A stretch of DNA of 64,000 nucleotides from Candidatus Methanoperedens sp. Lineage in GTDB: Archaea > Halobacteriota > Methanosarcinia > Methanosarcinales > Methanoperedenaceae. The notes under the pieces were generated by a model. That model did not search any database, was not told the origin of the DNA, and saw only the letters and a list, made by a program, of their open reading frames with translations. The stretch covers positions 1 to 64,000 of the forward strand of contig JAHFDG010000014.1 of NCBI GenBank assembly GCA_023249105.1, in the 5' to 3' direction. Shown here one piece after another: positions 9,917 through 60,793 of the stretch. The first letter of the stretch is position 1. Each line of letters starts with the position of its first letter. The position numbers and the translations under genes are program-made.

Positions 9917-10360
9917 ATTATTCCCCGGTTTGTCTTATCCCTATTATTTTCAGAAAGAGGCGCTAAGTTCATGAATTATTAATTTTCCTCATTTTTGTTT
10001 CTATTAGGTATTTCTTTGTTCCTTATTGCCGATAAGATTATCGTAAATGAATCCTGATATTTGTTTATAAATTAAACCTTGAGGCTTTTGGATGCACGAA
10101 AAACTTTGGGAAAGTTTTATCAAAAATTGAGCACGTCTGGCATAATTTGTTAAACTTGTACATCAGTTAATTCCGTCCCACAGCCGCTGCACCGCAGACT
10201 ATTTATCGTATAATGTCAATTACTAAATATTCCAAAAAATGTGCGAGTGGGCTGGGAATAAAAATCAGAAAAACCATTCGTTCCTGCAATTGGCTGATTA
10301 AAATCCGGCTGTGAGGAACAAAAACGATGTTGATATTGGATAGGGAGAGGCATCGACAGG
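9917..10360. other. Intergenic region between divergent redox genes
   Basis: 444 bases without a gene, lying between the flavodoxin operon (minus) and the cytochrome gene (plus), so it should hold both promoters. I see AT-rich patches but no clear operator. The one notable element is a copy of the first hairpin of the large structured repeat described at 49565 and 60611 (see 10097-10129). Confidence 0.5.
10097..10129 (+). repeat. Fragment of the structured intercistronic repeat
   Basis: The bases here read GAAAAACTTT-GGG-AAAGTTTT followed by ATCAAAAAT. This matches the first module of the elements at 49565-49759 and 60611-60793, differing mainly in the loop (GGG against AAG), and keeps a perfect 8-bp stem AAAACTTT/AAAGTTTT. 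The similarity stops after this module, so it is either a truncated copy or an independently moving hairpin. Confidence 0.5.
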
Positions 10361-44377: not shown

Positions 44378-44520
44378 TGACACCCCCCTCACTCCTCCCT
44401 CCCACTCGGACACATCTCCCCAATCATACACACCCCGCATTTCGGCACCACATGTCTGCACATCTCCTGCCCTAACCTCACAAGCAGCTCATTGATATAG
44501 CGCTTCGGCATGACTTCGCG
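44378..44520 (-). pseudogene. Duplicated 3' fragment of the endonuclease III gene
   Basis: About 143 bases closely match the 3' end of the nth gene at 45960-46112. Read on the minus strand it encodes RYINELLVRLGQEMCRH then VVPKCGVCMIGEMC, that is the last part of endonuclease III with its iron-sulfur cysteines, ending in the same C-rich 3' flank. It has no 5' part and cannot be functional. The two copies flank the fic gene as direct repeats. Confidence 0.85.
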
Positions 44521-44601: not shown

Positions 44602-45939
44602 ATGAAAATTCCGGAAAGCCCGCCAAAGATATTGTATAATAAGATAGCAGATGGACTAAAATATTTAAAAAACGACTCCTATAATCAATTAATCAAAGAA
44701 GCTATTAACAAATATTTGTACTGGTCTGAATTCAAATATAAACCCGGCTCTGGTCAGATAGAACCTGAAGTATTATGGACAATTGTTAAATTAAATAGAA
44801 ATTTAAGCGCTGAAAAGATTAAAATAAGTGATATAACAGGATTTGAATTCAAATATAACCTGACTCCTGATATTCAACAAAAATTACATGAATTCGACCT
44901 TAATCTGGGGGGAAGACTCGGCGGGGAAGAGATTATTCCCAGCAGCGATAAAAACAGGTATTTAATCAGTTCAATCATGGAAGAAGCGATTGCCTCAAGC
45001 CAATTAGAGGGCGCTGCTACAACAAGAAAAGAAGCAAAGAAGATGTTAAGGCAGGAAAGGAAGCCGAAAAACAAGTCTGAACAAATGATCCTGAATAATT
45101 ACAATACAATAAGAAAACTAAAAGAATCAAAAGGCGAAAAGCTTACAACAGAATTAATTCTGGAAATCCACTCTTCTATTACGAAAGACACTTTAAGCGA
45201 TTCAAACCAGGAAGGACAATTCAGGAAATCAAATGATATTGCGGTTGTCAGTTCAAGCGGGGAAGTTGTTTATATCCCGCCGGATTTTGAACATCTTGAA
45301 AAAATAATGAGGGATTTTTGTATTTTTGCTAATGAATCAAACGAAAAAAGATTTATTCATCCGGTTATTCGGGCTACGATTTTACACTTCTTAATTGGTT
45401 ATATACATCCCTTTACTGATGGAAATGGAAGAACTGCAAGGGCGATTTTTTATTGGTATTTGCTTAAAGAGGGTTACTGGCTGATAGAATATATGTCCAT
45501 TTCCAGGATGATAATAAAATCCCCGGCACAGTATGCAAGGGCTTATTTATATTCGGAACTTGATGAAAACGATTTAACTTATTTTATAAATTACCAGTTA
45601 AAAACAATGGGTTTAGCCTTTGACAGCTTGAAAGAATATATAAGTAGAAAAATCCAGGAAAAACGAGAACTATATAATTTCAAAAAAATTAAAAATATTA
45701 ATGACAGGCAAATTATCATATTAAAATTATTATCCGATGAACCAAAATTTACATTCACAATAAAAGAGATCCAGAACAGGTTTAACACCGCTTATCAAAC
45801 AGCAAGGACAGATGTAATGGGCATGGAAAAGTATGGGCTTATCCAAAAAAATATTATTGGAAAAAAGAAATTAATATATTATAGGTCTGAAAATTTTGAT
45901 GAAATCCTCTCAAGATTAATTACGGAAGGACAAAAATGA
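44602..45939 (+). CDS. Fic-domain protein with inhibitory motif and C-terminal winged helix
   Basis: A 445-residue Fic protein. The catalytic motif HPFTDGNGRTAR is complete (residues 269-280), so it should transfer AMP or another nucleotide part to a hydroxyl group on a target protein. An inhibitory helix SSQLEG (132-137) N-terminal to the core identifies a self-restrained class II Fic enzyme. The C-terminal 70 residues look like a winged helix (FTIKEIQNRFNTAYQTARTDVMGMEKYGLI), suggesting DNA binding and self-regulation. The gene is AT-rich and is flanked by direct repeats of the nth 3' end, so it was inserted next to nth. It is monocistronic. Confidence 0.9.
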   Translation: MKIPESPPKILYNKIADGLKYLKNDSYNQLIKEAINKYLYWSEFKYKPGSGQIEPEVLWTIVKLNRNLSAEKIKISDITGFEFKYNLTPDIQQKLHEFDLNLGGRLGGEEIIPSSDKNRYLISSIMEEAIASSQLEGAATTRKEAKKMLRQERKPKNKSEQMILNNYNTIRKLKESKGEKLTTELILEIHSSITKDTLSDSNQEGQFRKSNDIAVVSSSGEVVYIPPDFEHLEKIMRDFCIFANESNEKRFIHPVIRATILHFLIGYIHPFTDGNGRTARAIFYWYLLKEGYWLIEYMSISRMIIKSPAQYARAYLYSELDENDLTYFINYQLKTMGLAFDSLKEYISRKIQEKRELYNFKKIKNINDRQIIILKLLSDEPKFTFTIKEIQNRFNTAYQTARTDVMGMEKYGLIQKNIIGKKKLIYYRSENFDEILSRLITEGQK

Positions 45940-45959: not shown

Positions 45960-46112
45960 TTGACACCCCCCCTCACTCCCCCCTCCTGCTCGGACACATC
46001 TCCCCAATCATACACACCCCGCATTTCGGCCCGACAGGTCTGCATATATCCTGCCCGAACCTCACAAGCAGCTCATTGATATAGCGCCAATACCTCTTCG
46101 GGAGTACTTCGC
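45960..46112. repeat. Direct repeat partner: 3' end of nth and flank
   Basis: This is the intact-gene copy of the sequence duplicated at 44378-44520. Both begin with TTGACACCCC on the plus strand and continue through the nth stop codon and iron-sulfur region. The copies are about 85-90 percent alike by eye, with a short deletion in the distal copy near 44509. Confidence 0.8.
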
Positions 46113-47456: not shown

Positions 47457-49568
47457 ATGACAACAGAATGCACCGCCTGCAAAGGAACAGGCACTATCAT
47501 CCTAAGCGAAAAGGAATGCCCGGACTGCAAGGGCTCAGGCAAGCCAAAAGCCATAAGCCTTGATCAACTCTCAGAAAAAGACCTTGGAAAACTCATGGGA
47601 GGGGGCATAAAATGCCCAAAGTGCCAGGGCACAGGCAAGATATCGGTCACCGAACCCTGCAAGACCTGCGCCGGCAGGGGAAAGTTCTTCACATGCACGG
47701 TATGTGGGAAAGAAACCACGAAAGGCGACCTCTGCGAGAACTGCGCCAAAAAACCTCTTGTGCATGTCCTGAGCGCAGAGTGCGACACGCGCGAGCTTGA
47801 GGTCGGGAAGGTTTACGAAGGAAAAGTGCAGGGGCATGCCAACTTCGGCGTGTTCGTTGACCTGAACCCGCAGCTCCGGGGGCTCATACATTCAACTAAC
47901 ATCAGTTTCCTCCCTGAAATAGGGGATAAGATATTCGTTGAAGTGAAAAACATAGCATCGAACGGCAACATCGAACTGCTCCCGAAGAGCCTTAAGGAAT
48001 TCCAGCTAATCGAAGTTGAAAAACAGCTTCCCCGCCGCAAAACAACAGAACTCTCAAAGTACCTGGGCAAGCTCGTGCATCTATCAGGCGAGGTAATACA
48101 GATAAAACAAACCGGGGGCCCCACGATATTCACGATTTCGGATGAAGACGGGACAGTGCAGTGCGCAGCCTTTGAGAAGGCGGGGGAGCGCGCATATCCT
48201 GAAATAAAATCCGAGACCATCGTGAAGGTAATCGGTGAGCCCTCAATGAGGAATGGCGCCATGCAGGTAGAGATACGCGCCATGAAGCAGTTATGGGGAG
48301 GGGATGCTACAGGCATCAAGGAGCAGATAGAATCAGCGATAGACAGGCGCGCAGAACCCCATGATATCCAGTTCCTTGTAAAAAGCGAAGTACTGGAAAA
48401 GCTAAGACCAAAGATGCGAAACGCAGCCAAGCTCATAAGGAAAGCGGTTTTCAAGTCCCGCCCGATAATCATAAGGCACCACGCGGATGCAGACGGCATT
48501 ACTTCAGCGATTGCCATAGAGCGTGCGCTCCTGCCGCTGCTGCGTGAAGTCGGTGGCTCTGATGCCGACCGCCACTTCTACAGGCGCTCCCCTTCAAAGG
48601 CGCCGTTCTACGAACTTGAAGACGTAACAAAAGACCTCACATTCGCGCTTGAGGACCAGGAGAGGTTTGCCCAGAAGATGCCGCTTGTGGTATTGATGGA
48701 TAACGGCGCGACTGAAGAGGATATGCCTGCCATGAAACAGGCGATAATTTACGGTGTGGATATCATGGTCATCGACCACCACCATCCCGACGGTACAATA
48801 GATTCCATGGTGCTCGAACATGTGAACCCTGCCTACGCAGGCGGGGATTTTGGCATAACCACAGGGATGATTGGAACTGAGATTGCCCGCATGATAAACC
48901 CGGAGGTCACGGAAGATATAAAGCACCTTCCTGCCGTTTCAGCAGTCGGGGACAGGTCTGCTGCTCCTGAAGCAGAGCTTTACAAGGCGCTGGTGGCGGA
49001 GAAATATAAACCCGAAGACCTGAAGAACATGGCGCTTGCAATTGATTACGAGGCTTTCTGGCAGCGATTCAATGACGGGCGCGGGATAATGAACGATATT
49101 CTCAATCTTGGTTCAAATGTCAGGCATCAGCAGATAGTAAAACTATTATGTGAGCAGGCAAACGCCGCAATTGCGGAACAACTTGAGGCATCGATGCCTA
49201 ATGTGAAAACCCAAAAACTGGCTAACGGCGCTATAATGAATGTAATAGATGTTGAAAATTTCGCCCACAAGTTCACGTTTCCACCACCCGGCAAAACAAG
49301 CGGGGAGATTCATGACCGCCTGTGCTCCCAGTACAGCGGGCAGCCTGTAGTCACCATCGGATACGGTCCTGATTTTGCAGTATTGCGCTCAAAAGGGGTT
49401 AAAATGAACATCCCGCAGATTGTGAAAGAATTGCACAGCGAAATCAAAGGCGCAGGCGTAAGCGGCGGAGGGCATCTTGTGGTGGGCAGCATAAAGTTCG
49501 TGGAAGGAATGAGAAAAGAAGTGCTTGCAAAACTTGCTGAGAAAATAGGGGCGGCTGGGACTCAATGA
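47457..49568 (+). CDS. DHH phosphoesterase with DnaJ-type zinc fingers, S1 and OB domains
   Basis: A 703-residue archaeal RecJ-like protein. Residues 1-100 hold DnaJ-type zinc motifs (CTACKGTG, CPDCKGSG, CPKCQGTG, CKTCAGRG) and two more CxxC pairs. Residues about 112-180 are an S1 RNA-binding domain (GKVYEGKVQGHANFGVFVDL). Residues about 200-285 are an OB fold (LVHLSGEVIQIKQTGGPTIFTISDEDG). The DHH catalytic core follows with RHHADADGITSA (about 340) and VIDHHHPDG, and a DHHA1-type end GAGVSGGGHLVVGSIKF. It is probably a nuclease for single-stranded DNA or RNA in replication, repair or RNA turnover. The stop codon overlaps the start of the structured repeat element. Confidence 0.9.
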   Translation: MTTECTACKGTGTIILSEKECPDCKGSGKPKAISLDQLSEKDLGKLMGGGIKCPKCQGTGKISVTEPCKTCAGRGKFFTCTVCGKETTKGDLCENCAKKPLVHVLSAECDTRELEVGKVYEGKVQGHANFGVFVDLNPQLRGLIHSTNISFLPEIGDKIFVEVKNIASNGNIELLPKSLKEFQLIEVEKQLPRRKTTELSKYLGKLVHLSGEVIQIKQTGGPTIFTISDEDGTVQCAAFEKAGERAYPEIKSETIVKVIGEPSMRNGAMQVEIRAMKQLWGGDATGIKEQIESAIDRRAEPHDIQFLVKSEVLEKLRPKMRNAAKLIRKAVFKSRPIIIRHHADADGITSAIAIERALLPLLREVGGSDADRHFYRRSPSKAPFYELEDVTKDLTFALEDQERFAQKMPLVVLMDNGATEEDMPAMKQAIIYGVDIMVIDHHHPDGTIDSMVLEHVNPAYAGGDFGITTGMIGTEIARMINPEVTEDIKHLPAVSAVGDRSAAPEAELYKALVAEKYKPEDLKNMALAIDYEAFWQRFNDGRGIMNDILNLGSNVRHQQIVKLLCEQANAAIAEQLEASMPNVKTQKLANGAIMNVIDVENFAHKFTFPPPGKTSGEIHDRLCSQYSGQPVVTIGYGPDFAVLRSKGVKMNIPQIVKELHSEIKGAGVSGGGHLVVGSIKFVEGMRKEVLAKLAEKIGAAGTQ

Positions 49569-49759
49569 AAAACTTTAAGAAAGTTTTATCAAAAACCGTT
49601 GCGCCGCTTTACTTCGCAGACACGTATGCCCACAGGCATACGTGGATACCGCATAAAGCGAGGTGTCGCTTTTCAAACGACGGGTATGGTGCGCCATACC
49701 CGGACACGTCCTCCCGAGACGTGATTCTGGACGTCATAAAGGGGCGTAACCCTTTATGA
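49565..49759 (+). repeat. Structured intercistronic repeat element, copy 1 (with open reading frame)
   Basis: A 195-base element filling the whole gap between the DHH gene and the ferredoxin gene. It is a string of hairpins: AAAACTTT/AAAGTTTT, CACGTATGCC/GGCATACGTG, AAAGCGA/TCGCTTT, GGGTATGG/CCATACCC, CACGTC/GACGTG and CATAAAGGG/CCCTTTATG, almost all perfect. An open frame of 64 codons runs through it (starts MKNFKKVLSKTVAPLYFAD); its ATG overlaps the DHH stop and its TGA overlaps the ferredoxin ATG. The last hairpin pairs the ferredoxin start codon. Copy 2 is at 60611-60793 on the other strand; a fragment lies at 10097-10129. Confidence 0.85.
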
Positions 49760-59465: not shown

Positions 59466-60614
59466 TCACCTGTTTATTGTCTTATGAAAATGCTTGGCGC
59501 TCTTATTAATCTTAATCCCATGTGCTTTGCAGAAATTATCAAACATCCCATAAAAAAGGTCATGCTCGCTCATCCGTATCACTGCTGCGTCATGCGCCCG
59601 CATAAGTATATCTGGATAATTGCCCCGGATAACACACTGGGCGCGAATGATATCCGCGATTTTGTCGATATCTTCCGTTTCATGTACCCATGCAGGGAAT
59701 TCCACACGTGCAGGAAGACCATTACTCAGCCTCATGTAAAAAAACGCAAGGCTGTTCTTAAAAAGCCCGTAGTTATCAAGCACAGAGTTTGAAACCTCGC
59801 CCCGCCTGTCATCCCTGTCGCAAAGAAAAGCCGCTGTTCTTTCTCCCCACAAAAGATGGGAAAAAAGATGTGTATCCGAGAGCTTTGTCTTTTTCAACCC
59901 GAAGAGGAAATGCATCATGAGAGTAATATCGCGCGGCATTGTTGTATCAATAAAACCGATGACGGTATTGCGTGTTTCCCTGGAAGCAGAAAGGAGCCTC
60001 ACGATTGCGTTTATGTATATCTCCCTGATATTCCTGTTCAGGACATTTATATGGGAAAGGATAAGGGCGCCGTCCAGCAGGACATAGAGCTTTTCATGTT
60101 CTTTCATCAGTTGTATGATGGTATCGCATTCCATTGAAAAACGGCGTGCATCGACATATTCACTTCCGAAGGAATATACGCTTGCTGCCTCAAACTCCCC
60201 GGGCGTGATGATGGCTGCTCCTGTTTCCTGTTTATAATCGCTATCCTCAGTATGCCTGTTAAATACGCTTGAGGTCTGGATTACTGCGATAGGAATCTCA
60301 AAATTCTTGTCCGAATATATCTGGCTTCCGTCAACGGCTCCCACTGCAACGCCAGAAAGCACAGAATCCACCCACTGCATCGCCTCATGGCGGTTTTTCC
60401 AGTTATAAGGAAAAGGATGAATGAGTTTTCCGGTTTCAAGAAATTTCGCTCCGCTGTATGGGCGGAGACGCTCATTCATCGAAATATCGATATTCCTGAC
60501 CTTTGTAAGCTCATTCCTGTACTCCTCTGTCAGTTCAGAGCGTTCAATATCATAAGACATTATAGAATCAAGTTTGGCATCAAACTGTAAAGAGATGTTT
60601 TTCAGGTCAATCAT
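59466..60614 (-). CDS. nurA: NurA 5'-3' nuclease
   Basis: A 382-residue NurA nuclease: AVGAVDGSQIY with catalytic-type D95, LYVLLDGALILSHI with the second aspartate, and a late VIRGNYPDILMRAHDAAVI segment, in the order of the NurA domain. With HerA it makes the 3' single strand for recombination. The ATG at 60614 (MIDLKNISLQF) is the real start; it lies in the last hairpin of the structured repeat (CATAAAGG/CCTTTATG), where AGGAG is also located. The open frame upstream of it is repeat sequence. Confidence 0.9.
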   Translation of the reverse strand: MIDLKNISLQFDAKLDSIMSYDIERSELTEEYRNELTKVRNIDISMNERLRPYSGAKFLETGKLIHPFPYNWKNRHEAMQWVDSVLSGVAVGAVDGSQIYSDKNFEIPIAVIQTSSVFNRHTEDSDYKQETGAAIITPGEFEAASVYSFGSEYVDARRFSMECDTIIQLMKEHEKLYVLLDGALILSHINVLNRNIREIYINAIVRLLSASRETRNTVIGFIDTTMPRDITLMMHFLFGLKKTKLSDTHLFSHLLWGERTAAFLCDRDDRRGEVSNSVLDNYGLFKNSLAFFYMRLSNGLPARVEFPAWVHETEDIDKIADIIRAQCVIRGNYPDILMRAHDAAVIRMSEHDLFYGMFDNFCKAHGIKINKSAKHFHKTINR

Positions 60615-60793
60615 AAAGGCTCCTTTATGACGTTCCAAGCCACGTTTCGGGAGGACGTGTCCGGCGCACCATATCCGTCGTTTGAAAAGCGACACCTCGC
60701 TTTATGCGATATCCACATATGCCTGTGGGCATACGTGTCTGCGAAGTAAAGCGGCGCAACGGTTTTTGATAAAACGTTCTTAAAGTTTTTCAT
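60611..60793 (-). repeat. Structured intercistronic repeat element, copy 2 (with open reading frame)
   Basis: A 183-base copy of the element at 49565-49759, in the opposite orientation, filling the gap between rad50 and nurA. It codes in frame for 60 residues (starts MKNFKNVLSKTVAPLYFAD) and the frame ends on the nurA ATG (ATGA). Against copy 1 it lacks two stretches of six bases each, so the frame is kept. Several stems are kept too: CACGTATGCC now pairs with GGCATATGTG through a G-U pair, and the terminal stem is CATAAAGG/CCTTTATG. Its 5' part overlaps the last four codons of rad50 (HEKL). Confidence 0.85.

Follow-up and report, generated by a model that had tools for sequence, protein, structure and literature searches.

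Two copies of a hairpin-rich element in the window (the whole 64,000-nt stretch of DNA that was analyzed) were found to belong to a real family of modular palindromic mobile elements of the Methanoperedenaceae, which has probably been active recently and is apparently undescribed. The family is probably non-autonomous and probably survives in operons as a translational relay, that is, through termination-reinitiation. Its strongest feature, which was absent from the initial annotation of this DNA, is that the copies in operons read without interruption from ATG to TGA and overlap the gene on either side.

The first window copy (copy A, positions 49565-49759, forward strand) is flanked by a DHH-family gene upstream and a small ferredoxin gene downstream. 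It forms a mini-cistron of 195 nt and 64 codons, which runs stop-free from the ATG at 49565 to the TGA at 49759 (ATG AAA AAC TTT ... CCT TTA TGA) and is open in frame 0 only. The second (copy B, positions 60611-60793, reverse strand) lies between rad50 and nurA, and its mini-cistron runs from the ATG at 60793 to the TGA at 60611 (183 nt, 60 codons). The initial annotation had located both copies correctly and named the flanking genes as a DHH nuclease, a ferredoxin, rad50, and nurA, all four of which agree with Pfam. The copies were also nearly identical as claimed: one aligned block of 138 nt agrees at 95% and a second, of 46 nt, at 85%. Each had been described as spanning the distance from the stop region of one gene to the start codon of the next, which was right as to place, while the actual fit proved tighter. 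The ATGA at 49565-49568 (forward strand) is shared by the stop of the DHH gene (TGA at 49566-49568) and the start of mini-cistron A, and a single ATGA occupies the empty orthologous site of one relative (L084). Similarly, the ATGA at 49756-49759 (forward strand) is shared by the stop of mini-cistron A and the ferredoxin start (ATG at 49756), and the ATGA at 60611-60614 (reverse strand) by the stop of mini-cistron B and the start of nurA. The rad50 gene ends inside copy B, at a TAA (60780-60782, reverse strand) lying 11 nt into the element; its present end reads VIHEKL-stop, and the site joined from its flanks would read VIHD-stop. Compared with copy A, copy B shows two losses of 6 nt, both of which keep the frame. 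The earlier claim that a 6-base loss re-formed the terminal stem holds for one of these, and the other (CCATAC) breaks the fourth stem. No tRNA was found in the window. Elsewhere in the window, a 121-nt direct repeat (44383-44503 and 45967-46087, 93% identical) flanks a Fic/DOC-family gene (44602-45939) in a cassette-like arrangement.

The host was identified as Candidatus Methanoperedens, as the relatives of its DHH gene, with identities of up to 97%, include genomes of that name. Within the host genome (3.28 Mb, 134 contigs), a search with copy A gave 82 matching stretches, spread over some 40 or more sites. The element is hence present in many copies rather than the two first noticed, and a simple recent duplication of just two copies is ruled out. 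The copies are 75-403 nt long, carry no transposase gene, and occur at many unrelated sites. Copy A is a mosaic in which the left-end hairpin occupies element positions 1-30, a middle block 28-108, another block 106-153, and the right end 153/167-195; these modules are combined variously, and in varying numbers, across the copies. The two ends are different hairpins (AAAACTTT.. and ..CTTTA) without terminal inverted repeats, each end being itself palindromic. Two types of right end were distinguished, namely R1 (CATAAAGCGAGGTGTCGCTTTATGA) and R2 (CATAAAGGGGCGTAACCCTTTATGA). In three loci (L021, L024, and L025), the element carries a 78-nt pair of hairpins repeated head to tail, so that arrays within an element lengthen by a multiple of three. 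A solitary left-end hairpin was also found in the window at 10096-10121 (forward strand), which is intergenic, not at a gene start, and has ACGA in place of ATGA; it is probably a decayed copy.

Matches were found in all 34 Methanoperedenaceae genomes including that of the host, one of them marginal (31 genomes of the genus and three others of the family), while only one match, itself marginal (E 0.006), came from the 26 genomes of the order that lie outside this family. The distribution of left ends, allowing up to two mismatches, was uneven, with approximately 15-24 each in G000, G001, G009, G015, G022, G025, and G026 and none in many others. A search of viral contigs with the exact right-end patterns found none, and no copy was found in plasmid records. 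The copies considered here were gathered by search from the host genome and its relatives and are a sample rather than a complete census.

A comparison of orthologous sites revealed both insertion and loss. At the DHH-ferredoxin junction, the site is empty in L084, where a single ATGA joins the two genes. In L077, whose DHH gene is 97% identical, a 132-nt element of another mosaic composition occupies the exact base at which copy A sits, and L123 has two tandem elements, in the arrangement ATGA-132-ATGA-84-ATGA. Another small insert (ATGGTATACGAATGTAAACATTGCAATGGGATTTG...) follows the DHH gene at this junction in L078, L091, L098, and L113; the junction thus receives more than one kind of element. 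The rad50-nurA junction is empty in L299 and L301, which have CATGATTGACC (ATGA), and filled in G000, G001, and G022, the last with two elements in tandem. In G025 (L300, contig G025:C187), only GGGGCGTAACCCTTTATGA is left, a 19-nt scar of the R2 right end that is apparently the remnant of an element after its deletion. Among 14 other relatives, in which this site reads ATGC, ATGT, or GTGC, it is empty in all 14, and shared ancestry could also account for filling in the ATGA lineages only. The occurrence of empty, filled, doubly filled, and scarred orthologous sites shows that the element inserts at (A)TGA, that insertion recurs or is re-shuffled at one site, and that an element can be lost again. 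On these comparative sequence grounds the family was shown to be mobile, which, together with the many copies in the host genome and across the genus, bears out the earlier suggestion of a new mobile intercistronic repeat.

An ATGA (or TGA) was found on both sides of the element versus one at the empty sites, a pattern in which an element end and a target duplication look alike, and copies outside ATGA show none. The left end sometimes read GTGA or TTGA, and the right end was ATGA in almost every copy, which suggests that the true target may be TGA and that the A preceding the right TGA may be part of the element.

Folding of copy A was compared with dinucleotide shuffles and was strong both as RNA (z -5.6) and as DNA (z -7.7). 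As DNA, it formed six hairpins, all given here on the forward strand. The left-end hairpin (AAAACTTT-aag-AAAGTTTT, 49566-49591) is common to nearly all copies. It is followed by hairpin 2 (CACGTATGCC/GGCATACGTG, 49621-49644), hairpin 3 (AAAGCGA-ggtg-TCGCTTT, 49655-49672), which is an internal version of the R1 right end, hairpin 4 (CGGGTATGG/CCATACCCG, 49681-49702), which is the one broken in copy B by the 6-nt loss, hairpin 5 (ACGTC...GACGT, 49705-49723), and a right-end hairpin of type R2 (TCATAAAGGG-gcgtaa-CCCTTTATGA, 49734-49759). The initial description gave each copy five or six near-perfect stems; the fold of copy B is less striking (z -2.7). The last hairpin pairs the start codon of the next gene with a CAT; in copy A the ferredoxin start codon lies in its 3' arm, and this R2 hairpin contains stops in all three frames. 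In R1, the center of the last hairpin is GAGGTG, a perfect Shine-Dalgarno sequence located seven nt before the ATG and complementary to the 3' end of the host 16S rRNA (ATCACCTCC).

Covariation of the stems was assessed among 18 distinct 84-nt elements. A three-hairpin model left 98.9% of cells paired, and the covariation score was 0.262 versus 0.066 in shuffles. The variation was mostly in the middle stem, where five adjoining pairs each took two to four Watson-Crick forms, with no G-U pair and no broken pair among the 18 elements; the near invariance of the left hairpin is due in part to its use as the search pattern. The structural constraint proposed earlier is hence real. It had been read as selection for RNA or single-strand DNA structure, and whole Watson-Crick swaps without G-U intermediates fit maintenance of the palindromes at the DNA level at least as well as selection on RNA. 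The swaps suggest that the palindromes may be kept as DNA, by hairpin copying, inversion, or module exchange.

The reading frame was examined in 121 copies from the host genome and its relatives that had xTGA at both ends, 101 of which had an ORF of 60 aa or more behind them; some copies had no long ORF downstream. The frame was open exactly from the ATG to a TGA sharing ATGA with the next start in 80 of the 101 copies, which are related, so that these counts are not independent. The distance from the mini-cistron stop to the next start was -4 nt in these 80 copies, -8 in one, +6 in 13, +16 in five, +31 in one, and +59 in one. Hence, in 99 of 101 copies the frame ended overlapping the next start codon or within 16 nt of it, which is the stop/start geometry of gene pairs coupled by termination-reinitiation (TeRe). 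Among the 21 copies that were not exactly open, 19 had their stop inside the terminal hairpin or shortly beyond the start. The body before the last hairpin was stop-free in frame 0 in 99 of 101 copies, in frame 1 in none, and in frame 2 in eight; for the reverse frames, the corresponding counts were 46, 10, and two. On the upstream side, the stop of the preceding gene overlapped the element start as ATGA in 57 of 95 copies, and was within about 12 nt of the element or taken into the first hairpin in 89 of 95.

The two right ends differed in how strictly the frame was kept. Copies ending in R1 were open in 47 of 50 cases, and their 18 distinct open lengths, which span 84-291 nt, are without exception divisible by three. 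Of the copies ending in R2, 33 of 51 were open, and since the R2 hairpin contains stops in all three frames, this end tolerates other frames and a nearby stop is partly automatic. When copies were clustered at 85% similarity (45 clusters), the representative was open in 20 of 23 R1 clusters and 11 of 22 R2 clusters.

Copies located away from ATGA served as a control. These are nested inside two other repeat families, with cores of mostly 78, 84, or 105 nt that would throw the frame off; about three of 18 such copies, which came from few lineages, would be open if placed at a junction, compared with 47 of 50 R1 copies (Fisher p about 1e-9). The dispersed repeats that host nested modules (L006, L020, L038-L040, L045, L255, L258, and L269-L276) have the flanks CGTACGAACT...CGAACTC in one case and ATCCGTGT...TCCGTGCAATCCGTG in the other, and seem to be separate Methanoperedens repeat families. 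As a second control, chimeras were simulated by joining modules at shared 12-mers. Already 72-75% of these were open, indicating that the conserved frame is owed in part to the inherited design of the modules. A stop adjoining the next start was kept in 95 of 98 distinct real copies compared with about 78% of the chimeras. Pure module inheritance was accordingly rejected as the full account of the frame, as the simulation accounted for much of it and not for all; the comparison points to a frame-compatibility that is largely built into the modules and to selection for the remainder.

These controls bear on the strongest alternative, in which the element is a plain palindromic parasite of the MITE or REP type. 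Structure alone would then matter, for single-strand transposition, and the frame would be a by-product of frame-compatible modules descended from one ancestor. Hairpins that covary without sequence conservation, the high proportion of open chimeras, and the presence of copies outside operons are all in line with such a parasite. Against it, the stop is kept next to the start more often than in chimeras, copies outside operons are mostly frame-incompatible, and both indels between copies A and B are multiples of three. This alternative was judged unlikely.

A separate question is how the elements move. An origin from IS200/IS605 elements, with mobilization by a Y1 transposase (TnpA or RAYT) and single-stranded insertion 3' of a short target, would fit the hairpin ends and the short retained target, and Y1 genes are present in 29 of 31 genomes of the genus. 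However, the abundance of these genes is at odds with that of the element. For example, no Y1 match was obtained in G015, where there are 16 or more left ends; in G022, with 24 left ends, the only match is a remnant carrying a stop; and G030 lacks left-end matches while having ten for Y1. In addition, the Y1 loci of the host genome itself lack element ends. A Y1 or RAYT transposase is disfavored as the mobilizer, and a derivation of this kind appears quite unlikely.

The initial annotation had also offered an RNA regulatory element. In its mobile form, the hairpin string would act like an attenuator, responding to a signal by altering how stable the mRNA is or how well the downstream gene is translated. 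The strong RNA folding of copy A, the position of the start codon within the terminal stem, and the orientation of gene-junction copies in the same sense as their genes agree with such a role. In contrast, an Rfam search found no match either by gathering score or at E up to 1, the middle stem changes by whole Watson-Crick swaps and not through G-U pairs, the neighboring genes are diverse, and the number and order of hairpins vary between copies, even at one site. A regulatory role was neither shown nor needed, and is very improbable. Least probable of all, and hardly credible, is a mobile coding element whose product is a small basic peptide with a function of its own: the peptides are open and basic and have common segments such as KTVASVYTAHTYGFAIRG and IKRGVAL, but their lengths range from 24 to 96 codons, nothing is constant beyond the hairpin-encoded N-terminus, and identical DNA modules are read in two or three phases among different open copies, so that no single peptide is conserved and a conserved peptide is ruled out as the cause of the frame.

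The preferred reading remains that of a translational relay. In Haloferax and E. coli, termination-reinitiation is nearly abolished by gaps of about 20 nt, and in Haloferax a 13-nt gap costs about 60% of reinitiation while 22 nt abolishes it (PMC10666635). Gene pairs of the ATGA type were strictly coupled in 13 of 14 tests (PMC6728339). Since ribosomes in these two organisms restart only when the genes overlap or lie a few nucleotides apart, an insert of 80-400 nt at ATGA should cut off the second gene, unless the insert is itself a cistron with ATGA ends, a description that these elements fit. An element enters (A)TGA, most often the stop/start ATGA of an operon, leaving ATGA on both sides. 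A ribosome finishing the upstream gene would reinitiate at the ATG of the element and translate its frame of 24-96 codons, melting the hairpins on the way. Melting of the last hairpin would free the start codon of the next gene, and in R1 also the GAGGTG Shine-Dalgarno sequence, before the ribosome terminates at the second ATGA and reinitiates on that gene. The copy would be kept in the operon as a ready-made mini-cistron, with selection for coupling as the presumed cause of the frame preservation. It is somewhat favored that operon insertion is made harmless, and thus selectable, in just this way, with ATGA being targeted, the overlap rebuilt at both ends, and a hairpin gate on the next start opened only by a translating ribosome. 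Other modes of initiation may lessen the need for coupling; a Shine-Dalgarno-like tetramer was found at only 13 of 34 ORFs in the window.

Insertions into tight operons would be expected to break translational coupling, and the family presents a solution to this problem that is repeated dozens of times per genome. Its natural variants, whether empty, filled, doubly filled, scarred, or in or out of frame, could be used to probe how far archaeal operons depend on termination-reinitiation. The elements also add apparently unannotated mini-cistrons to archaea that are important for methane removal.

Several known systems share some of these features. In the open-access papers searched, there was no account of a mobile element entering an operon as an additional coupled cistron, nor of such an element in Methanoperedens. 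Gene pairs joined by ATGA use the same coupling as the mechanism proposed here (PMC6728339, PMC10666635), while the known pairs are ordinary genes. The Borg tandem repeats associated with Methanoperedens include ORF repeat units divisible by three and are reported to be virtually absent from host chromosomes (PMC9879509); they are direct tandem repeats, whereas the elements described here are dispersed palindromes on host chromosomes. The REP, BIME, and REPIN sequences are intergenic palindromes in mosaic arrays (PMC2817692, PMC3733652, PMC8266576). REPs are 20-40 nt long, most of them bear a GTAG or CGTC tag, and they are linked to RAYT (Y1) proteins. In contrast, no GTAG or CGTC tag is present at the foot of the Methanoperedens palindromes, the ends of which are ATGA/AAAAC and CTTTA/TGA, and Y1 abundance does not track copy number.

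The BOX elements of Streptococcus pneumoniae are modular hairpin repeats (A, repeated B, and C) of variable length, where the large ones hold reading frames and can supply stop or start codons (PMC3049150). In the parts of that account consulted, no rule of ATGA overlap at two ends or of lengths in multiples of three is described, and the host belongs to another domain. The palindromic elements of Rickettsia (RPE) and Wolbachia are likewise short mobile palindromic repeats that are translated in frame, and they are tolerated by the host since expression is unbroken (PMC2229807, PMC10969869). RPEs insert inside genes and extend the protein, whereas the window and gene-junction copies of the Methanoperedens element all lie between genes with a stop of their own, none being an in-frame insertion inside a protein gene. 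The Methanoperedens element, which is archaeal and modular, is a cistron of its own that has start and stop codons in common with both neighbors. The rebuilding of a start/stop overlap at both ends is a combination that distinguishes it from RPE, BOX, and REP elements alike.
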